Of a stretch of DNA of 64,000 bases, positions 47,062 through 58,982 are shown in pieces. Under the pieces are notes generated by a model, which did no database searches, was not told the DNA's origin, and worked only from the letters and a program-made list of their open reading frames with translations. Position numbers and translations under genes: made by a program. Numbering within the stretch: the stretch's first letter is position 1; each line of letters begins with the position of its first letter. The DNA is from Chroococcidiopsis thermalis PCC 7203 (GTDB lineage Bacteria; Cyanobacteriota; Cyanobacteriia; Cyanobacteriales; Chroococcidiopsidaceae), in the NCBI RefSeq assembly GCF_000317125.1, contig NC_019695.1, positions 4,328,336 to 4,392,335 on the forward strand, written 5' to 3'.

Positions 47062-47325
47062 CTAAATAAATTGGAAGTAGTCTGCGCTCAAGTCCAAAGT
47101 TTCAGGACTAATACCGGGGAGTGCAGCGATCTGCTCCGGCAGTGCGCCTGAGATGCTGGCATATATCCCTGTTCCAGAGGGCAGTCCTTCGGGTAGATTG
47201 CCGAGAGTGTACTGCACCTCAACAGTAGGAGTCACTAGAGTTGATGCAGTCCGACTTAGTATTACAGTTGTAGATAAGCTAAACAAGATTGATAAGTAAA
47301 TACACTTTAGCAATGCTCGATACAT
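47062..47325 (-). CDS. Possible small exported protein
   Basis: Counting from an internal ATG at 47325 gives 87 residues with a signal-like start (LLKCIYLSILFSLSTTVIL). A Gly/Pro-rich body follows, with GNLPEGLPSGTGIYASISGA. The frame also extends upstream into the antisense of the IS701 remnant, which is not credible. It may be a small gene clipped by that insertion. Not recognised. Confidence 0.35.
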   Translation of the reverse strand: MYRALLKCIYLSILFSLSTTVILSRTASTLVTPTVEVQYTLGNLPEGLPSGTGIYASISGALPEQIAALPGISPETLDLSADYFQFI

Positions 47326-48713
47326 CCAACGTGTTTTTAACAGGTGTTGCATTAGAAGCGCTCGCCCAATGGAGCAGTACATTGAAGGCGTTTCAGCAAA
47401 AACTGGAAAAACACTTTGCTCGTTCTGAAGCACGCAAAGCAGCAAATGACTAGATCCAGGCACTACTAAGCCCAGTTGAGCGGAAGAATGGATGGCAGAT
47501 GGCAGAACAAGTAGGCTATGTCAATCCCTATCGCTTCCAGCATCTACTAGGGCGAGCGCAGTGGAGCGCGGATGCAGTATGTGCAGAAGTTAGGCAGTAT
47601 GCGATGGAGCATTTGAAGAGTGAAACAGATATTTTGGCAATTGATGAAACAGGCTTTCTCAAACAAGGAGAGCAATCAGTAGGGGTGCAGGTGCAGTATT
47701 ACGGTACGACTGGACATTTGGAGAACTGCCAAGTGGGTGTGTTCATGTCCTATATCAGTGATAAAGGGCATACGTTAATAGATCGCCGCCTGTATCTACC
47801 GCGCTCGTGGAGCGAAGATCAAAACAAACGTAAGAAGGGAGCAATTCCAGAAGCAATTAAATTTGCAACTTCGCCTCAATTAGCGCAACAGATGTTGGAA
47901 TCAGCCTTTAAAGACGGAATACGCCCCACCTGGTTTGTGGCTTTGGAGGTTTATGGCAACGACGGTTCCCAAGCGGTGGTGGCTGGAGAAGACTGCCAAA
48001 CAACCGTATATACTCACAGTCAGCAAGAAGCAGCCTGTAGTTATTGGATGGCAACGCTATCAAGCCTCCGACCTAGTTCCGCAGAAGGATAGCCAGCAGT
48101 GGCAACGCCTCAGTTGTGGAACCGGTAGCAAAGGAGAACGACACTATGATTGGGCGAGTGTTGCCGTTAACTGCGATCGATCGGATGGTTTCCAGCGCTG
48201 GATATTGTTCCGCCGCTGTTTAGAACATCCTGAAGACCCTCGCATCAGCTATTACCAAGTGTTTGCCAAGAGCGATACTACTCTAGAAACGATGGCTCAG
48301 ATAGCTGGGCAAAGGTGGCGAATTGAGGAGTGCTTTAAATTCGCTAAAGACTCTCTCGGTTTAGGAGAATACGAAGTTCGTTCCTGGCACGGTTGGCATC
48401 GACATATCACTCTTGTCCTGACGGCTCAAACATTTCTCACCGTATTACGACACCAAACTGAGCCTGCCATTTACTCCTCTACCCCCCCTTTAACGATCGC
48501 ACCCACTGGCAGTCTGGCTGCGTTCAAAGCGGCACGAGGTTTATTGTCCGACTGAGTATTTGGGAGATGAAGCGATGGATCTCTAGACTCTTATTTCCTA
48601 CAGTTTGGTGTCTCGAACATGTTTTACACTGGTCTTATTGGCGACGCCACCCCAGAACGCTACTGCGCGTTACTGGCATTATCAAAAACGAGCTAGTCCC
48701 TCATCTACTTAAA
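47313..48713 (+). pseudogene. IS701-family transposase, decayed
   Basis: Fragments in several frames match one IS701-type transposase: an N-terminal part ending in a TAG at about 47450, then MAEQVGYVNPYRFQHLLGRA with LAIDETGFLKQG and WFVALEVYGNDG (frame from 47499). The next part is WWLEKTAKQPYILTVSKKQP (frame from 47935) with AGQRWRIEECF, then a tail past 48555. At least one stop and two frameshifts are present. The ends of the element cannot be located. Confidence 0.8.
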
Positions 48714-48727
48714 TAGAACTGTAGTAC

Positions 48728-49195
48728 TAGTATGCTTACCGACACGACCACATAGAATCAAGTAGCGAATTACTGGGCGAAACTTAAAGCTATCCAACAG
48801 TCTCCGGCAACGACTTCTTCAGGTAAGCAATGATGAAGTGTTTTTTTCGACGAACGACCACATTTCATCTGCGCTCATCGCATCCGGATCAACAGCTTGT
48901 ACTTGGGCATGATGAAATGCGTTGTGCTTTTTGACGCTTAGGCTCGTATCAAGCTGACTCCCGTGTTGTAGGATAGTCCACTAATTCGACTAATACCGCG
49001 CTTTTCTTGTGCCCTCACAATGCGACTGCAAAACAATCCGTACTTCCTCGTCTGTGACTTGCCGCCCTTGATAAATTGTGTCCAAGGTATCGGTAAACGA
49101 TTGAAGAGCACTTTGGGCAACAGTAGCGTTGGCTACCCTTACTCGTTAAACCCTTGTTTATGGGTCTTATTGTGGCTACATAGTGGACAAGGCAT
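48728..49195 (-). pseudogene. IS1-family transposase, decayed
   Basis: The minus strand starts MPCPLCSHNKTHKQGFN (zinc-finger end of IS1 transposases). It continues in other frames as KGSQRYCCPKC, FTDTLDTIYQGRQVTDEEV, RGISRISGLSYNTGVSLI, SADEMWSFVEK and EVVAGDCWIALS. Several frameshifts and stops occur in under 500 bases. It abuts the IS701 remnant head to tail. Confidence 0.75.
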
Positions 49196-53016: not shown

Positions 53017-53217
53017 GAGGGCGATCGCCTGCTACCAATTGAAATTGCCAAGACAGAACTAGAAGCCAAACTAGGTGTGGGTTGGAGTCGGAAATCAATT
53101 AAGCGCAAGATCGACCAAGGGTGTCCGTTTGCTTGGAAGCAGGGTATCCATTATATTCAAATTGGTAACAAACTAGCATCTGTCAATGTTGATGCTATCT
53201 TGCGTGAATTAGTTTAG
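52993..53217 (+). CDS. Small helix-turn-helix protein, excisionase-like
   Basis: 74 residues, highly basic, with a helix-turn-helix-like RKSIKRKIDQG and VGWSRK. Its 3' end overlaps the integrase end by 4 bases on the opposite strand. Size, charge and position next to an integrase suggest a recombination directionality factor or small regulator of the element. This is inference from context. Confidence 0.55.
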   Translation: MKTANRFQEGDRLLPIEIAKTELEAKLGVGWSRKSIKRKIDQGCPFAWKQGIHYIQIGNKLASVNVDAILRELV

Positions 53218-54323
53218 ATAGGTGCTTTAGGAGGATTATTTGCCATAATCTCCTTGAATGTATCAAGAGTATGCTGACCATTAATCCAGCGATTATATGT
53301 TTTTAAATGAACAGTTGGCGAGTGCACCATCATTCGAGCGGCAACTGCGATTGGAAACTTAAATGCTACGCTGGCGCGAATAGCATAAGCGTGTCTGAGG
53401 TTATAAGGAGTAAAAGGCACTGCCAATCGCTTGAATGCTCGTGCAGTCCGTTCTCCATAAACTGTGAAATCGCCTTGACAGTTTACTGTTGGTAAGTTTC
53501 CTTCCCAAGGTCTCCAAGCTGTTGCCCACTCTGGGTAAAGTGGCATTACCCCCTCACGCGGACCAGTCTTACCTAAAAGTACCTGACAAGCATGAGGTGG
53601 TTGAGAATCAATTTGGCAATGCCAAACTTCGTGGTCGCGCAATCCATAGATTGCCATACGGGTATAGACTAGTTGCCATTGAGGATTAGCAATTGCCGAT
53701 CTGATAGTGGATATCTCTTCATCATTGGGAATGTTGCGGGACTGAACTTTACTAGCTCAATAGCTGCCTTGATAGGGAGACAAATCTATAAGAATATCAG
53801 CGAACCTAGCTAGTCTTGTCAGAATTTGCACTAATCGCTGGCGCGAGCGCGTATTTGGCGGCTTGGTCTGTGCCACTTCTATCAATAATTCAGCAGTTAG
53901 GTTTTTTTCTGGTGGCAGGCATTTTAGTCCTAGCTGCCACTCTTCACGCTCCCAGTAAATCCGGTTTTTCTCGCTGTCGCCTTTGCACTGGAACCAGTGT
54001 TTTTTGTAGCGATCGATCCACGCCTGGCAAGACTGCCAGTTTGTAATTTCGGTGTAGTCGTTCCAGTCAAACTTATTTTGATCGAGTGCTGCCCAAATCT
54101 TTAAAGCCTCGGAGAGTGCCATTTTGTAGCCATAGCTTGTGGTGTCCAAACCCAATGCCAAATAAGTTTGCTTTGGTTTAGTCTCGGTTGAACCAGGGCG
54201 GGGTGGTAATGTCCCGCGTAGGGAGAGTTTGCGGTTACGCACCACGACTCGCAATCGGACTCCTGCTGCCTCAAGCTTTTGATTGATGCCATCTATGTCA
54301 GTTGCTGATTTATTTCGAGCCAT
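53214..54323 (-). pseudogene. Tyrosine integrase with one in-frame stop
   Basis: The reading frame from 54323 covers an N-terminal arm/core-binding half (to the TGA at 53757-53759). It then continues in the same frame to 53214 with the catalytic half. The catalytic part shows YGLRDHEVWH, a LRHAYAIRAS box (H-xx-R) and NRWINGQH with the following helix. The overall length of about 369 codons fits phage/island integrases. Only the single TGA interrupts it. The nearby repeats and tRNA fragment support a tRNA-targeting integrase. Confidence 0.8.
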
Positions 54324-54355
54324 GCAACTTTTCCTATTTATAGCGAGCGGCAGTT

Positions 54356-54439
54356 CTGTACTAAAACTCTGTACTGACGGCTGGATACCAATACCTAAGC
54401 GGTTTTTTCAGCCAAAAAACCTGTACTAAGTACTGTACT
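54356..54439. repeat. Four CTGTACT repeats, candidate integrase arm sites
   Basis: CTGTACT occurs at 54356, 54369, 54421 and 54433, between the integrase start and the tRNA fragment. The first and last are followed by AAAACT. This spacing and position suit arm-type binding sites of a tyrosine integrase. Confidence 0.5.
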
Positions 54440-54590
54440 AAAACTGAGGTTAATTATGCGCGATTTTTAGTTGTTTTGCCGATTGACTGCCAGATTTGTC
54501 CAGTCCAAACCTACAAAACAATAAGGGCTAAAAACCTTACCAGCGGCAAGTTTCAAGCCAAAGCCATTACCCAAACTCATTCACAAAAAA

Positions 54591-54626
54591 AGCTGGTGAC
54601 GGGATTTGAACCTGCGACCGGCTGAT
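54591..54626 (-). other. tRNA-Thr 3' fragment, attachment-site half
   Basis: The minus strand carries the 3' strand of the anticodon stem (ATCAGC), the variable region CGGTC, the T-arm with GGTTCAAATCC and the acceptor end CACCAGC-T. This matches the 3' half of a cyanobacterial tRNA-Thr. The D-arm and 5' acceptor strand are not on the right side, so it is not a working tRNA. Such partial tRNA copies are left by integrases that target the tRNA 3' end. Confidence 0.7.
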
Positions 54627-55273
54627 GACAAAACTGCAATCCAGTTTTTACAGTTTTTGTCGAATAACGGTTTGAGCAGGGCTAGAATTAGCTTTACTAA
54701 ATTCTATGCTATTTTCATCGGCTACTCCTGCCACTACGATCGGTCATCCAGGAAAATGCAGCCACCTAAAATTCTCGGGGTTCTACAGGTCAGGAACAGC
54801 ATACAAACGCTATCCCTACCCCAGTGTCTAATTTGCCACAATTGTCAATACTCATACAGCATAATTTAGAAAAACAGGGGGGACGATCGTTCCATTGGCA
54901 AAACCGTAAAATAGGAAATTCAGGATTTGCGATCGCTGCTATTCTTAACGTCTAACGATCGGTGTAAGCGTTAGTTAGAGCTTACCCTGGAAGCTTTTTA
55001 GCAGATGGGATAACGATAGCAGAAGGCAGGATTAGATCGGTGACACGAAAATTTTCAGTTCAATAAACAAAACGTCATAGCATTTTAACAACAAAGGTTT
55101 TGCTGTCGAGCATTTCGATTAACACCGAAATTCACACCGAATTGGTGGAGATATTAGAGGATAAAAGCAGGGCATAGCAATAACCGTAGCTCCCACGAGC
55201 GCGATCGCGTTCTAGAATTGGATGTAGAAATAGATAAGTTACCCCCAAAATAGCTTTTGAGCAGAAGCCACAG
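54627..55273. other. Region right of the tRNA fragment, no supported gene
   Basis: 647 bp. An open frame at about 54606-54869 reads through the tRNA fragment and is not credible. I see no further gene up to the toxin-antitoxin pair. Confidence 0.5.
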
Positions 55274-55525
55274 ATGAGTCACTTTGTAGATTCAATCGGA
55301 ATAGAAATCTCTCCAGATACTCTCAATCAAGGAGAAGGGGCAATTTTAAGAGAAATCGCGCTTCAGCTATATGCGCGTCAGATTTTTACCTTTGGTCAAG
55401 CTCGTCGCTTAGCTAATTTATCAGTTTGGGAGTTTCAACAACTACTGGGTCAACATCATGTAGAGCGTCATTACAATGAAACAGACTTAGCTGAGGATAT
55501 CGATACGATTGCAGCGAGTTATTAG
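55274..55525 (+). CDS. UPF0175-family antitoxin
   Basis: The 83-residue protein has the conserved pattern of UPF0175: LREIALQLYARQIFTFGQAR followed by LANLSVWEFQQLLG. It is a small helix-turn-helix-like antitoxin that pairs with DUF3368 PIN toxins. It lies 6 bases upstream of such a toxin. Antitoxins of this kind also bind the operon promoter. The start ATG follows no strong ribosome binding site. Confidence 0.85.
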   Translation: MSHFVDSIGIEISPDTLNQGEGAILREIALQLYARQIFTFGQARRLANLSVWEFQQLLGQHHVERHYNETDLAEDIDTIAASY

Positions 55526-55531
55526 GCAACT

Positions 55532-56020
55532 GTGACAGTTATTTGTAATGCTACGCCTCTAATTAACTTTGCGGCGATCGCTCGTCTCGATATCTTACCA
55601 GCAATATTCGAGCGAATTATTATTCCTCAAGCAGTTTATGATGAAACTACTGGTTCGGGCTTCCCAGGTACTCCGTTTGTACTACAAGCGATTGCCTCTG
55701 GGTGGCTGCAAGTTCGTCCGGTAGCTACCATAGCGCCTATCATTCCTGTAGAACTAGATGATGGAGAAAGGGAAGCAATCGCACTAGCGATTGAAATTGC
55801 TGAAAGGCGAATTTTGTTAGATGAGCGTGAAGCTCGACAAATAGCGCAGAGACTTGGCTTACAAGTTATGGGCACGCTGGGTATTCTCTTATTGGCTAAG
55901 AACAACCAAACCATACCTCAAGTTAGACCGATACTCGATAACACGATGAATGTGGCTCAATATTGGGTGAGTGCTGCACTCTACGCACAGGTTCTACAAC
56001 TAGCTGGGGAAGATATCTAG
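55532..56020 (+). CDS. DUF3368 PIN-like toxin
   Basis: The 162-residue protein starts at GTG. Its PIN-fold signatures are CNATPLINFA (first acidic/polar position), DDGEREAIALA and LLDEREARQIAQRLGL. It probably acts as an RNase toxin neutralised by the upstream UPF0175 protein. The pair looks complete and sits beside the tRNA fragment, as is usual for genomic-island cargo. Confidence 0.87.
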   Translation: MTVICNATPLINFAAIARLDILPAIFERIIIPQAVYDETTGSGFPGTPFVLQAIASGWLQVRPVATIAPIIPVELDDGEREAIALAIEIAERRILLDEREARQIAQRLGLQVMGTLGILLLAKNNQTIPQVRPILDNTMNVAQYWVSAALYAQVLQLAGEDI

Positions 56021-56114
56021 TAGCGCACTCGTTGGCGCGATCGCGCTCTTCCGTGCGAGGGATCGCGGTTTTCTTCCCGATTCTATGGAGTGCGATCGCT
56101 GCTCGATCTCTACA

Positions 56115-56570
56115 TCACGCGATCGCCTTGAGAAAAGCAACTGTAGTAGACCAATCTATGGTTCGATTCAACAGGGAGCGTTCAAAGAGGGAACGAATAA
56201 GGCTAATTTCTGGCGCTGACAAGTAGCGCGATAGATACTCGACATACGCAGGTCGCGTTGTATCAGCAGCACTAGCACTAAACCAACGGTTGAATAAATC
56301 TGGTGACACGTAAAGCTGAGTAGGATAATGTTCGACGGTGATTTTGACTTCGATCCCTGCTGCTGTCAGTGCCAAGCGTAGATCTTCCACATCCCAATTC
56401 ACCATCGGATCGGTAGGATTAGCATAGATTTCCTCTTCTGCTGCTGCTAAACGCTCGGAAAGCTGGGCATCTAGCCTGTTAACATCAAGCAGACGATACA
56501 ACCGTTGTGTATGGCGAGTGAGATTTTCTGCTACTAATGAGAGTGCAGTATGGGGAACGCTTTTGTCCAA
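56115..56570 (-). pseudogene. RarA-fusion methyltransferase C-terminal fragment
   Basis: The open frame from TTG at 56570 covers 151 residues. RHTQRLYRLLDVNRLDAQLSER, YANPTDPMVNWDVEDL and SLFERSLLNRTIDWSTTVAF match the end of the long cyanobacterial RarA proteins, in which an AAA+ recombination factor is fused to a methyltransferase-like domain. The matching N-terminal half is at 58173-58982 on the same strand, and about 340 internal residues are missing. It is not functional as such. Confidence 0.75.
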
Positions 56571-56770
56571 ATGTCATTCCTTGTAAATTTGCTCCTAGAG
56601 AACGTTTCGAGAAATTAATGGATGTTAACCATACCCCGCTCCCAGTAGTAAGTGTAATTATGGGCGAAATTCAGGTAAAGCTCAAGCAAGCAAATGTATC
56701 AAAAGGCTACATTAATGTGGGATGGCGAGAAGCTAGGGAAATGATGGAAAAACAGCGCAACAAGTTCTAG
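56571..56770 (+). pseudogene. Unidentified C-terminal gene fragment
   Basis: A frame here ends VKLKQANVSKGYINVGWREA and REMMEKQRNKF at a TAG. It reads upstream into rarA antisense, so only the part after about 56570 can be real. It does not match a family I recognise and might be the end of a gene joined here by deletion. Confidence 0.3.
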
Positions 56771-56849
56771 CTTTTAGCTTTAGAAGGTATGTTCCGAAAA
56801 TTATACAAGCTTTTCAGGCGAAGTGGTTGGAAAGACACCTCCTGAAAAA

Positions 56850-56920
56850 CCGTAATCTTACGGATTTACCAACTCTTGGTTTGGGAATTCTCCTCAAAAA
56901 AACCGTAAGATTACGGTTTC
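56850..56920 (-). terminator. Two successive CCGTAA-NN-TTACGG hairpins
   Basis: CCGTAATCTTACGG at 56850-56863 and AAACCGTAAGATTACGGTTT at 56901-56920 are both symmetric. On the minus strand each is followed by a T-run (TTTTT and TTTTTTT), which suits tandem terminators behind the phospholipase-D-like fragment. Their near-identical palindromes, 54 bases apart, could also be binding sites. Confidence 0.5.
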
Positions 56921-56983
56921 GTGCGGTCAGATAACGAAATAATCTTATTATCGCCCTTAATTCGATAAGTACTTTTATACTAT

Positions 56984-57913
56984 TTAGCTGTAACAATAAT
57001 TTTGCAAATAAATTTTTGGTGCAAATTTAGAAAAGCAAAGGGGGTAGAAATACGTTAAACAAATTACGTTAAACAAATTAAAAATTAACGATAATATATT
57101 GAGGTCAGATTTCAAAGTGAACAAAGAAAGAGACATAAATATTTTTATCAAAGAATAATTGGTAGGTATGTATCGTTTTGCCCACTCGCCTTCCAATAAC
57201 TCAGCACATGCTCGTGCAAGAGCTTCTTGCCAAGTAACAACATTTAATAGATCTTCAAGTAATACAATTAACTCATTATTATAATCTCTTCCTAACCTCC
57301 AGTAACTTTCTGCTATCTGACAAGATTCTTCGTAACGTTTTCTCTCTTTATTTTTTTCGTATCTATTGTTTTTTTCTAGTTGATATATAAGTCCAGATTG
57401 GCTGAAGTTACTAGAACCACTAGTGATTGCGTTATCTCCTCTAAATATTTTGGCATGAAATGGTCTTTTAGTGTTAGCAAGCTTAGCTTTCACTTTACCA
57501 CTTTTGATTAACTCAATAGCAACAATAACTTTGGCACAAAGAAATATAGATATTCCTCGCTCTTGAAGCCAATACTTCTTTACTTCTTCAGATAATTCAT
57601 GTTGAAATAATCTTTGCTGACTACTTTGAATTGTATTAGGTTCATGACCTATGAAAAGTTGAATTTCTTCAAAAGCCTTCGCATCTATATGGAGACCTGC
57701 ATGACATAAAGCTAAAAACTCAACAATCATCCCCAAAGATGTGTATCCTGTAATAATTAATGGCTTTTTTGAAATAAGTAAATCTTCAAAAACTAAAGAC
57801 TTAACAGTATGACCTGCATAGTTATAAGGAAATCGTTCATGAGAAGGTAACTCAATCTCTGTTTCTTGTGGGTTTTCATCTTCATCAAAAAGGCTAAGTT
57901 AAATAGATTTCAT
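56984..57913 (-). pseudogene. Phospholipase-D-like nuclease region of a helicase-type protein, truncated
   Basis: From the ATG at 57913 the frame meets a TAA at 57899-57901 after four codons. It then stays open and carries the HxK nuclease signature (PFHAKIFRGDNAITSGSSNF) at about 145-165. This N-terminal arrangement is typical of proteins in which a PLD nuclease precedes a SNF2-type helicase. Here the homology ends near GEWAKRYIP and the last 60 residues are low-complexity and AT-rich. The helicase part is missing. Such proteins often belong to defence islands. Confidence 0.6.
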
Positions 57914-58172
57914 AAACCAGAATTTTTGTCAATAACTATTGATAAAAAATAATACTAAGATAAGGATAAATCTCAGCACGTGAATTGCACAGTTACTATA
58001 TTAGTAGAACGAAGCAAGTAAAAGTTTTTGCGTATCATTTAACACAAGCAACTGGACACACACGCTGAAAAAAATGCAATAGGCATTTGTTACTTCGTAG
58101 CTATTCTACTAGGTGAATCAGATATTCTCGAAGTAATACTTTGATAAGAATTTACTATCGTTCATTTGAATG
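57914..58172. other. AT-rich segment upstream of the nuclease fragment
   Basis: 259 bp between the broken rarA N-terminal half and the nuclease fragment. It is AT-rich, with no gene seen. Confidence 0.45.
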
Positions 58173-58982
58173 CTATGTTGTGAGAACCCTATCTACAAAA
58201 GACATATAAGAAAAAGCTATAGAAAATTGTCGGAGTACAGCACGTTGCTGGATCGATTCCTCTGCAACCGCTAGGGTGATGTAGATCGCACCCTGACGAT
58301 CTGGAGGTGTAGTTTCTACTGCTAGCTCTAGTGCGTTGAGCAAAGAACGGGCATCACCATTCGCAACGTTGACTAAGTGCGCTAAGGCATCTTGTTCCAG
58401 CTTGACTTTGAGCTTGCCATAGCCGCGTTCTGGGTCTGATAGTGCTTGTTCGGCAATGCGGTACAAATCGCGATCGCCCAAGGGTTTGAGTTGGAAAATC
58501 CGCGAGCGACTGACGAGTGCTTTATTGACTTCAAAGAAAGGATTTTCAGTCGTTGCGCCAATGAGAATCACAGTCCCATTTTCTACCCACGGTAGCAGCG
58601 CATCCTGTTGTGACTTATTAAAGCGGTAGACTTCATCGACAAACAGGATCGTGCGCTGTTTGTTTTTGTTAGCTCTATCTTGAGCAGTTTCGATCGCTGC
58701 CCGAATTTCTTTGACTCCTGCAAGTACAGCATTAATAGCGATGAAGTGAGCGCGGGTGGTATTGGCGATAATTCGTGCTAGGGTAGTTTTTCCAGTTCCA
58801 GGTGGTCCAGCAAAAATGACAGAAGATAATTGGTCGGCTTCAATGGCACGGCGTAGGAGACGACCAGGGGCGATCGCGTGGTCTTGTCCGACAAATTCAT
58901 CGAGCGTGCGCGGACGCATTCGATCTGCTAGGGGTGAGGAGTTGGTTGTCGATTGGCGATCGCGACTGAATAATTCCGTCAT
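58173..58982 (-). pseudogene. rarA: RarA (MgsA) AAA+ ATPase, N-terminal half of broken gene
   Basis: I take the ATG at 58982 (MTELFSRDRQSTTN); a longer upstream frame has no family similarity. The AAA+ domain holds Walker A (FAGPPGTGKTTLARII) and a DEVYRF Walker B, then sensor-1 GATTENPFFEV. The family sequence stops at SIQQRAVL, after which about 20 unrelated residues lead to a stop at 58173. RarA acts on stalled replication forks. About 270 residues remain of an expected 730, so helicase-lid and methyltransferase parts are lost; see 56115-56570. Confidence 0.8.

Follow-up and report, generated by a model that had tools for sequence, protein, structure and literature searches.

Proteins of the RarA/MgsA/Mgs1/WRNIP1 family are the closest described relatives of the gene examined here, and E. 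coli MgsA (3pvs) is the top solved match of its relatives both by sequence and by fold. A longer form, in which RarA is fused to a methyltransferase-fold domain, is described by the NCBIfam model NF009881, and intact copies of this fusion are present in four genomes of the same family as our host (G002, G005, G006 and G008). The locus reported here departs from both: it keeps the RarA module only up to codon 249, without the MgsA_C oligomerisation domain, and although both of its parts fit the one fusion model, foreign DNA stands in place of 353 internal codons. Inactivation by a transposable element with an adjacent deletion offers a second comparison, with rarA genes elsewhere in the order inactivated by elements in G075, in G094 (behind codon 103) and in a copy of G002 (in place of codons 1-292). 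Our locus likewise has a MITE-like repeat at one junction, but the remaining filler appears to be defence-type DNA rather than a single insertion sequence. Within that filler lies a fragment whose full-length relative matches the PLD (HKD) plus SNF2 defence candidates (PADLOC C3a139 'HKD+Snf2', 2.5e-10; DpdE, 1.4e-15); the fragment itself retains the PLD front only, and the defence role of the family is putative.

A term search of the main text of a review of cyanobacterial repair genes (PMC5101192) gave 0 matches for RarA and MgsA, and one of PMC13308351 likewise returned no mention of either. In PMC3711429, a table row lists 104 genes from 52 genera, frame-broken and clustered as 'Recombination factor RarA'. 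We set PMC11602899 aside as a source on rarA, its term matches being an author's name. Our literature search found no paper on rarA, its loss or its plasmid carriage in cyanobacteria.

The DNA analysed is a stretch of 64,000 nucleotides from Chroococcidiopsis thermalis PCC 7203 (C1:4328336-4392335; hereafter the window), whose genome (G000) comprises 3 contigs and 6,689,401 bases and is rated 100% complete. Codons are numbered throughout after the intact 741-aa protein of G006. The locus holds the following features:

55274..56020, plus strand: UPF0175 and DUF3368 gene pair beside the rarA 3' part (Pfam)
56115..56531, minus strand: rarA 3' part, codons 603-739, the back half of a class-I methyltransferase-fold domain with the stop included (homology)
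56532..56651, no strand: complete MITE-like repeat of about 116 bp, its ends inverted over about 24 bp (by eye) and a TA flanking each
56658..56770, plus strand: 3' tail of an unnamed gene (56658-56751 is 73% identical in DNA to the tail of a gene on G484 contig C125)
56847..56919, no strand: inverted repeat with 21-nt arms spaced 31 nt
57110..57899, minus strand: truncated PLD-domain front of a PLD plus SNF2 helicase (57865-57155 aligned, 55% identical)
58147..58227, no strand: 81-bp repeat at the junction with the rarA 5' part (copies in G484, 81% identical, and G008, 75%)
58233..58982, minus strand: rarA 5' part, the AAA+ domain and most of AAA_assoc_2 (Pfam, NF009881, tblastn, DNA comparison)

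A preliminary description of this DNA had proposed that a rarA gene is split into an N-terminal AAA+ half and a C-terminal end on the same strand, and our analysis bears this out. The 5' part (58976..58233, minus strand) spans codons 2-249, is open and is 93.5% identical to the G006 protein, the 3' part spans codons 603-739, and NF009881 lies in register on both, matching them with its positions 2-250 and 597-732 (of 736) and with bit scores (480.8 and 109.7, respectively) that are each below the curated whole-protein cut-off of 651. Codon 249, the last of the 5' part, corresponds to residue 250 when the frame of the window is numbered by itself, and this frame ends its rarA portion with AVL before it enters filler DNA; the frame open from 58982 has 269 codons, made up of 249 from rarA and about 20 out of the filler. 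Over its reading frame the 3' part is 78% (G006) to 84.5% (G002 copy A) identical to intact proteins. The listed start of that frame, 56570, falls inside the MITE-like repeat; tblastn starts the rarA match at codon 597, but DNA comparison with G002 copy B shows that the homology sets in at the TA of codon 602. The two parts are co-oriented and in the correct order, and codons 250-602 are absent from the locus, making the loss 353 codons where about 340 residues had been estimated. The DNA separating them, put earlier at 1.6 kb and correctly called AT-rich, measures 1,699 bases at 33% G+C, against about 45-53% in the surroundings. Profile searches found no intact rarA elsewhere in this genome, the one further piece being a frame-broken scrap on contig C3.

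Intact relatives of the window's rarA carry AAA, AAA_assoc_2 and MgsA_C by Pfam. The AAA+ core is kept in the 5' part (PF00004, 4.7e-19; Walker A GPPGTGKT), with a Walker B stretch that reads DEVY and not DEVH owing to an H-to-Y change at residue 119 of the window's frame, within a stretch (DEVHRF) whose H is invariant in 32 aligned relatives. The lesion removed the end of AAA_assoc_2, the whole of MgsA_C (PF12002, for which the locus, lacking codons 250-602, gives no Pfam match) as well as the front half of the domain with the methyltransferase fold. What had been called the methyltransferase end thus has the fold claimed for it, judged from a relative's model, but only the back half of the domain is left. 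A whole-model fold search reached the AAA+ part only, so we folded the C-terminal domain of a Nostoc relative (L070) separately. The predicted model (pLDDT 92) matched known folds at Z 16.9-20.1 in the 50 matches listed, nearly all of them methyltransferases, among them 1xxl (Z 20.1, 200 aligned, rmsd 3.8) and 3ccf (Z 19.3, 230 aligned, rmsd 5.0), while Pfam methyltransferase models matched below cut-off only, in one of the two proteins scanned. According to this prediction, the C-terminal domain of the fusion family is a methyltransferase by fold, with putative catalysis. Fusion frames of similar length also occur on contigs labelled Chloroflexota, Spirochaetales, Deinococcales, Myxococcales and others and, going by these labels, the RarA-methyltransferase fusion is found beyond cyanobacteria.

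The history of the locus can be read against G002, which we treat as a genome of the same genus and do not call a sister. Its locus B is 90.8% identical to window positions 54407-56533, across the gene pair, the intervening DNA and rarA. The rarA frame of this locus has 450 codons and is unbroken between codon 293 and the stop (293-740), whereas codons 1-292 have given way to a two-frame transposase gene (IS630-type by eye). Since copy B has codons 293-740 unbroken, the loss of codons 293-602 in the window is derived. The earlier proposal of an insertion and a deletion in a replication-repair gene accordingly holds up against this close relative, which is uninterrupted in the middle and repeat-free at codon 602, with its own 5' part broken. 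Beyond copy B, G002 contains copy A, which is intact (C1:4592082-4594298), and a stub (codons 628-737) adjoined by a further copy of the UPF0175/DUF3368 pair. Profile searches of the three genomes of the genus recovered these three pieces in G002, the two parts and the C3 scrap in C. thermalis and no rarA piece in G001; the other matches, none better than E 2.4e-9 and all limited to the AAA+ region, we read as probably other AAA+ proteins. Copies A and B, the stub and the scrap together imply that the genus had several rarA copies, by duplication or gain, and that locus B was damaged in two ways. Synteny with the surroundings of G006 rarA or of G002 copy A was also sought and rejected, as the shared DNA amounts to rarA, about 50 bp behind the G006 gene and a 47-bp piece (54588-54634).

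The gene pair, which we take to be of toxin-antitoxin type, adjoins both broken rarA copies of G002 (L214 11098-11844; L215 9655-10401) and is thus found with a rarA 3' end in three places in two species. In G484 an 85% match to the pair (window 55252-55953) has no rarA found there.

At the other end of the 3' part, the MITE-like repeat, possibly of IS630/Tc1 type, sits at the TA of rarA codon 602 (TTA), and the repeat-free version of this site is present in G002 copy B. Further copies comprise 8 matches in G002 and 1 each in G001, G008 and G006. Aligning eight of them to the window copy (6 from G002, 1 from G001 and 1 from G008, the 72% G006 copy being left out), we found TA beside the repeat on the left in 8/8 and on the right in 6/8, the right end deviating in L160 (G002) and L152 (G008). 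No transposase able to mobilise the repeat was identified.

The rest of the filler has a different affinity. The 'truncated PLD nuclease' of the preliminary description does contain a PLD domain, yet that label was incomplete: over 242 positions the fragment aligns with residues 30-266 of a 1,098-codon PLD plus SNF2 helicase frame, whose front it represents, and the SNF2 helicase part is missing (PLDc_2 scores 18.5 bits on it, under the cut-off of 27). This front was matched in 6 of 340 genomes of the order, C. thermalis included, and in the other five the frames have 1,087-1,098 codons in four cases and 839 in one. With an E limit of 1e-4, 3 of the 340 (G000, G484 and G008) contain the 81-bp repeat. 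On contig C125 of G484, another genome of the family (L172, 6264-11251), the gene tail and the 81-bp repeat are found together, in the order and orientation of the window, and flank a 1,517-codon NTPase frame (PADLOC PDC-M54A, LmuA). The same pair of sequences thus encloses the NTPase frame in G484 and the PLD/SNF2 fragment in the window. By sequence comparison, the region between the 81-bp repeat and the gene tail is possibly an exchange site for defence genes, and we read the filler as what is probably a reduced piece of a defence-type locus. A search for the source of the filler gave no DNA match in the plasmid collection and none on contig C3.

We consider it highly probable that the window's rarA is a recent pseudogene of one of several copies carried by the genus, in which the MITE and filler replaced codons 250-602. 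Directly seen are the two parts in their order, the repeat, G002's unbroken middle and its site free of the repeat, and the lack of any other intact copy. For the course of events we infer a start from one of several rarA copies of the genus at this locus, into which the MITE would have inserted at the TA in codon 602; the stretch between the MITE and codon 249 would then have been lost and replaced via recombination with defence-type mobile DNA, which would be the source of the filler. No intermediate between the MITE insertion and the replacement of codons 250-602 was seen. RarA would no longer be made, its function having been lost only recently, and any truncated product would keep the ATPase module without the MgsA_C oligomerisation and methyltransferase-fold domains. 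An assembly error would mimic such a structure, and we hold it to be very improbable indeed: nothing was found in its support, the insert is single-copy in the genome except for 25 bp, the genome is in 3 contigs with a 100% completeness rating, and the order of the locus on the side of the 3' part is common to G002.

The two parts could also stem from different copies joined by recombination, the 5' part from copy A or another and the 3' part from copy B. In DNA the 3' part differs by 8.9% from copy B, 11.3% from copy A and 14.1% from G006, and its being nearer to B than to A speaks for the favoured pseudogene reading. Against that reading, copy B is without codons 1-292, so the window's 5' part is not linkable to it by sequence. 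The 5' part differs from copy A by about 9%, which does not exceed the 10.5-11.5% between A and B. Together with the several copies and stubs of the genus this last distance would suit such a joining, but a single broken gene already gives the same strand and the right order, and we regard two origins as unlikely.

Whether the gene died recently can be judged from private substitutions counted by codon position. In the 5' part these are 7:2:15 with no stop, alongside 3:1:11, 6:2:19 and 11:7:31 in intact copies, and suggest, with small numbers, that selection acted on the chromosomal 5' part until a recent time. The 3' part cannot decide, its counts being 3:2:8 when the set includes copy B and 3:2:4 when G008 takes its place, the same region giving 4:4:11 in copy A, 4:1:5 in copy B and 10:8:10 in the intact G006. 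As the 5' part still looks constrained, we infer loss of function from architecture and not from decay. The same open frame of 269 codons from 58982 and the same counts would fit retention of the 5' part as a working short AAA+ protein, a truncation and not a dead gene. Such a protein would be without MgsA_C and would carry the private H-to-Y change at the otherwise invariant residue 119, and a recent break explains the codon-position pattern equally, making retention improbable in our judgement.

The scrap on contig C3 (370,830 bases), at 274135-274389, covers codons 256-343 and includes a degraded piece of MgsA_C; its frame is broken by one stop, two 1-nt insertions and one gap. Private substitutions number 9:9:7 there, versus 1:1:8, 0:0:8 and 1:0:12 for the same codons in intact copies, and the contrast with the 5' part is modest (Fisher p 0.037 for the second position against the rest, 0.022 for first plus second against third). 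The numbers are small and point to the scrap being an old, dead extra copy. Its start at codon 256, perhaps 250, lies near the end of the 5' part at 249, as would be expected had the missing middle moved to C3 in the event that broke the gene. The scrap has, however, decayed far more than the constrained 5' part and has thus been dead for longer, it shares sites about equally with copies A and B (10 and 8 of 152), and the insert DNA common to both places consists of chance-length pieces only; we find such a move quite improbable.

Under the favoured reading of a recent pseudogene, the locus captures one loss of rarA, whereas G002 broke the same locus differently but kept another copy, so that C. 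thermalis and G002 offer a natural comparison for RarA's role. As a gene, the window's rarA is an ordinary pseudogene in an interesting setting.

That setting extends across the order, where the widely conserved rarA is often duplicated, plasmid-borne, damaged or missing. With the E limit set at 1e-30, where shorter rarA traces would be missed, NF009881 matched only 30 of the 148 genomes searched in the order: 19 matches are full length without stops (1,099-1,269 bits) and 11 are partial. Of 14 control genomes with ordinary RarA, the same search matched 9, which indicates that a plain RarA in the order would have been detected. Among the 11 genomes with partial genes (G000, G032, G064, G075, G083, G094, G113, G116, G124, G130 and G138), some genes are not dead. 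Those of G064 and G124 are partial because they lie at contig ends. G138 has an open RarA core without the C-terminal domain, and G116 has that domain alone. In G032 (L055, 8304-10907), a group II intron (Rfam RF00029) carrying a reverse-transcriptase-like frame lies between codons 414 and 415, and this rarA may still be made through splicing. The damage is clear in G075 (a transposase and a deletion), G130 (frame breaks), G083 (an internal deletion, with front and last codons read by eye) and G094. Contig C4 of G094 (309 kb; L050, L051) carries a stub of codons 1-103 twice, about 109 kb apart, with a transposase gene behind each (IS1-type by eye) and with much of the surroundings duplicated too; beside the stub in L050 lies a 1,162-codon frame that we take, from its appearance, to be a plasmid replication protein. 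In G113 (L052, 8040-8366), a stub of codons 16-102 lies directly behind the stop of a mnmG/gidA-like gene (by eye).

In the phylum sample, MgsA_C was found in 265 of 386 genomes, at least 6 of the same order among the matches listed, C. thermalis included. RarA matched 111 plasmid records at E up to 1e-30, and among the 30 of these matches listed, at least 15 records, all cyanobacterial, cover at least 80% of the fusion, in one piece in 11 and in two pieces in 4. One species accounts for two of the 15, as different strains, and the hosts include Nostoc, Trichormus, Calothrix, Pseudanabaena, Stanieria and others.

Horizontal spread was considered as the cause of the patchy distribution and rejected, the rarA tree grouping its rows by family. 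This tree, with 27 rows of which 23 belong to the order and 4 do not, bears on family grouping and not on plasmid versus chromosome, and requires 12 label changes where the minimum is 11; shuffled labels averaged 20.3 and were as low in 0 of 200 trials. Its topology favours descent with loss as the probable source of the distribution. Only 9 of its 24 inner branches are well supported, however, and against pure descent two Chloroflexota-labelled rows fall among those of the order, f1_G005 stands apart from the three remaining f1 rows, f15 sits inside f12, and a row of f20 groups with f32, misplacements that imply that transfers also happened. It is a tentative and rather doubtful suggestion that the RarA fusion is, in this order, an accessory gene, duplicated, plasmid- and toxin-antitoxin-associated, hit by mobile elements and missing from most lineages, with a role maybe in plasmid or mobile-element maintenance and not in general fork repair.

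Two frames at 53214-54323 resemble tyrosine recombinase halves by eye, with no Pfam match. Compared with locus B of G002, about 650 bases are additional in the window (53758-54406); the preceding 53506-53757 is 98.4% identical, against the 90.8% of 54407-56533. A frame-broken transposase gene (IS701-like by eye) lies at 47257-48730, and a relative of it adjoins locus B in G002.
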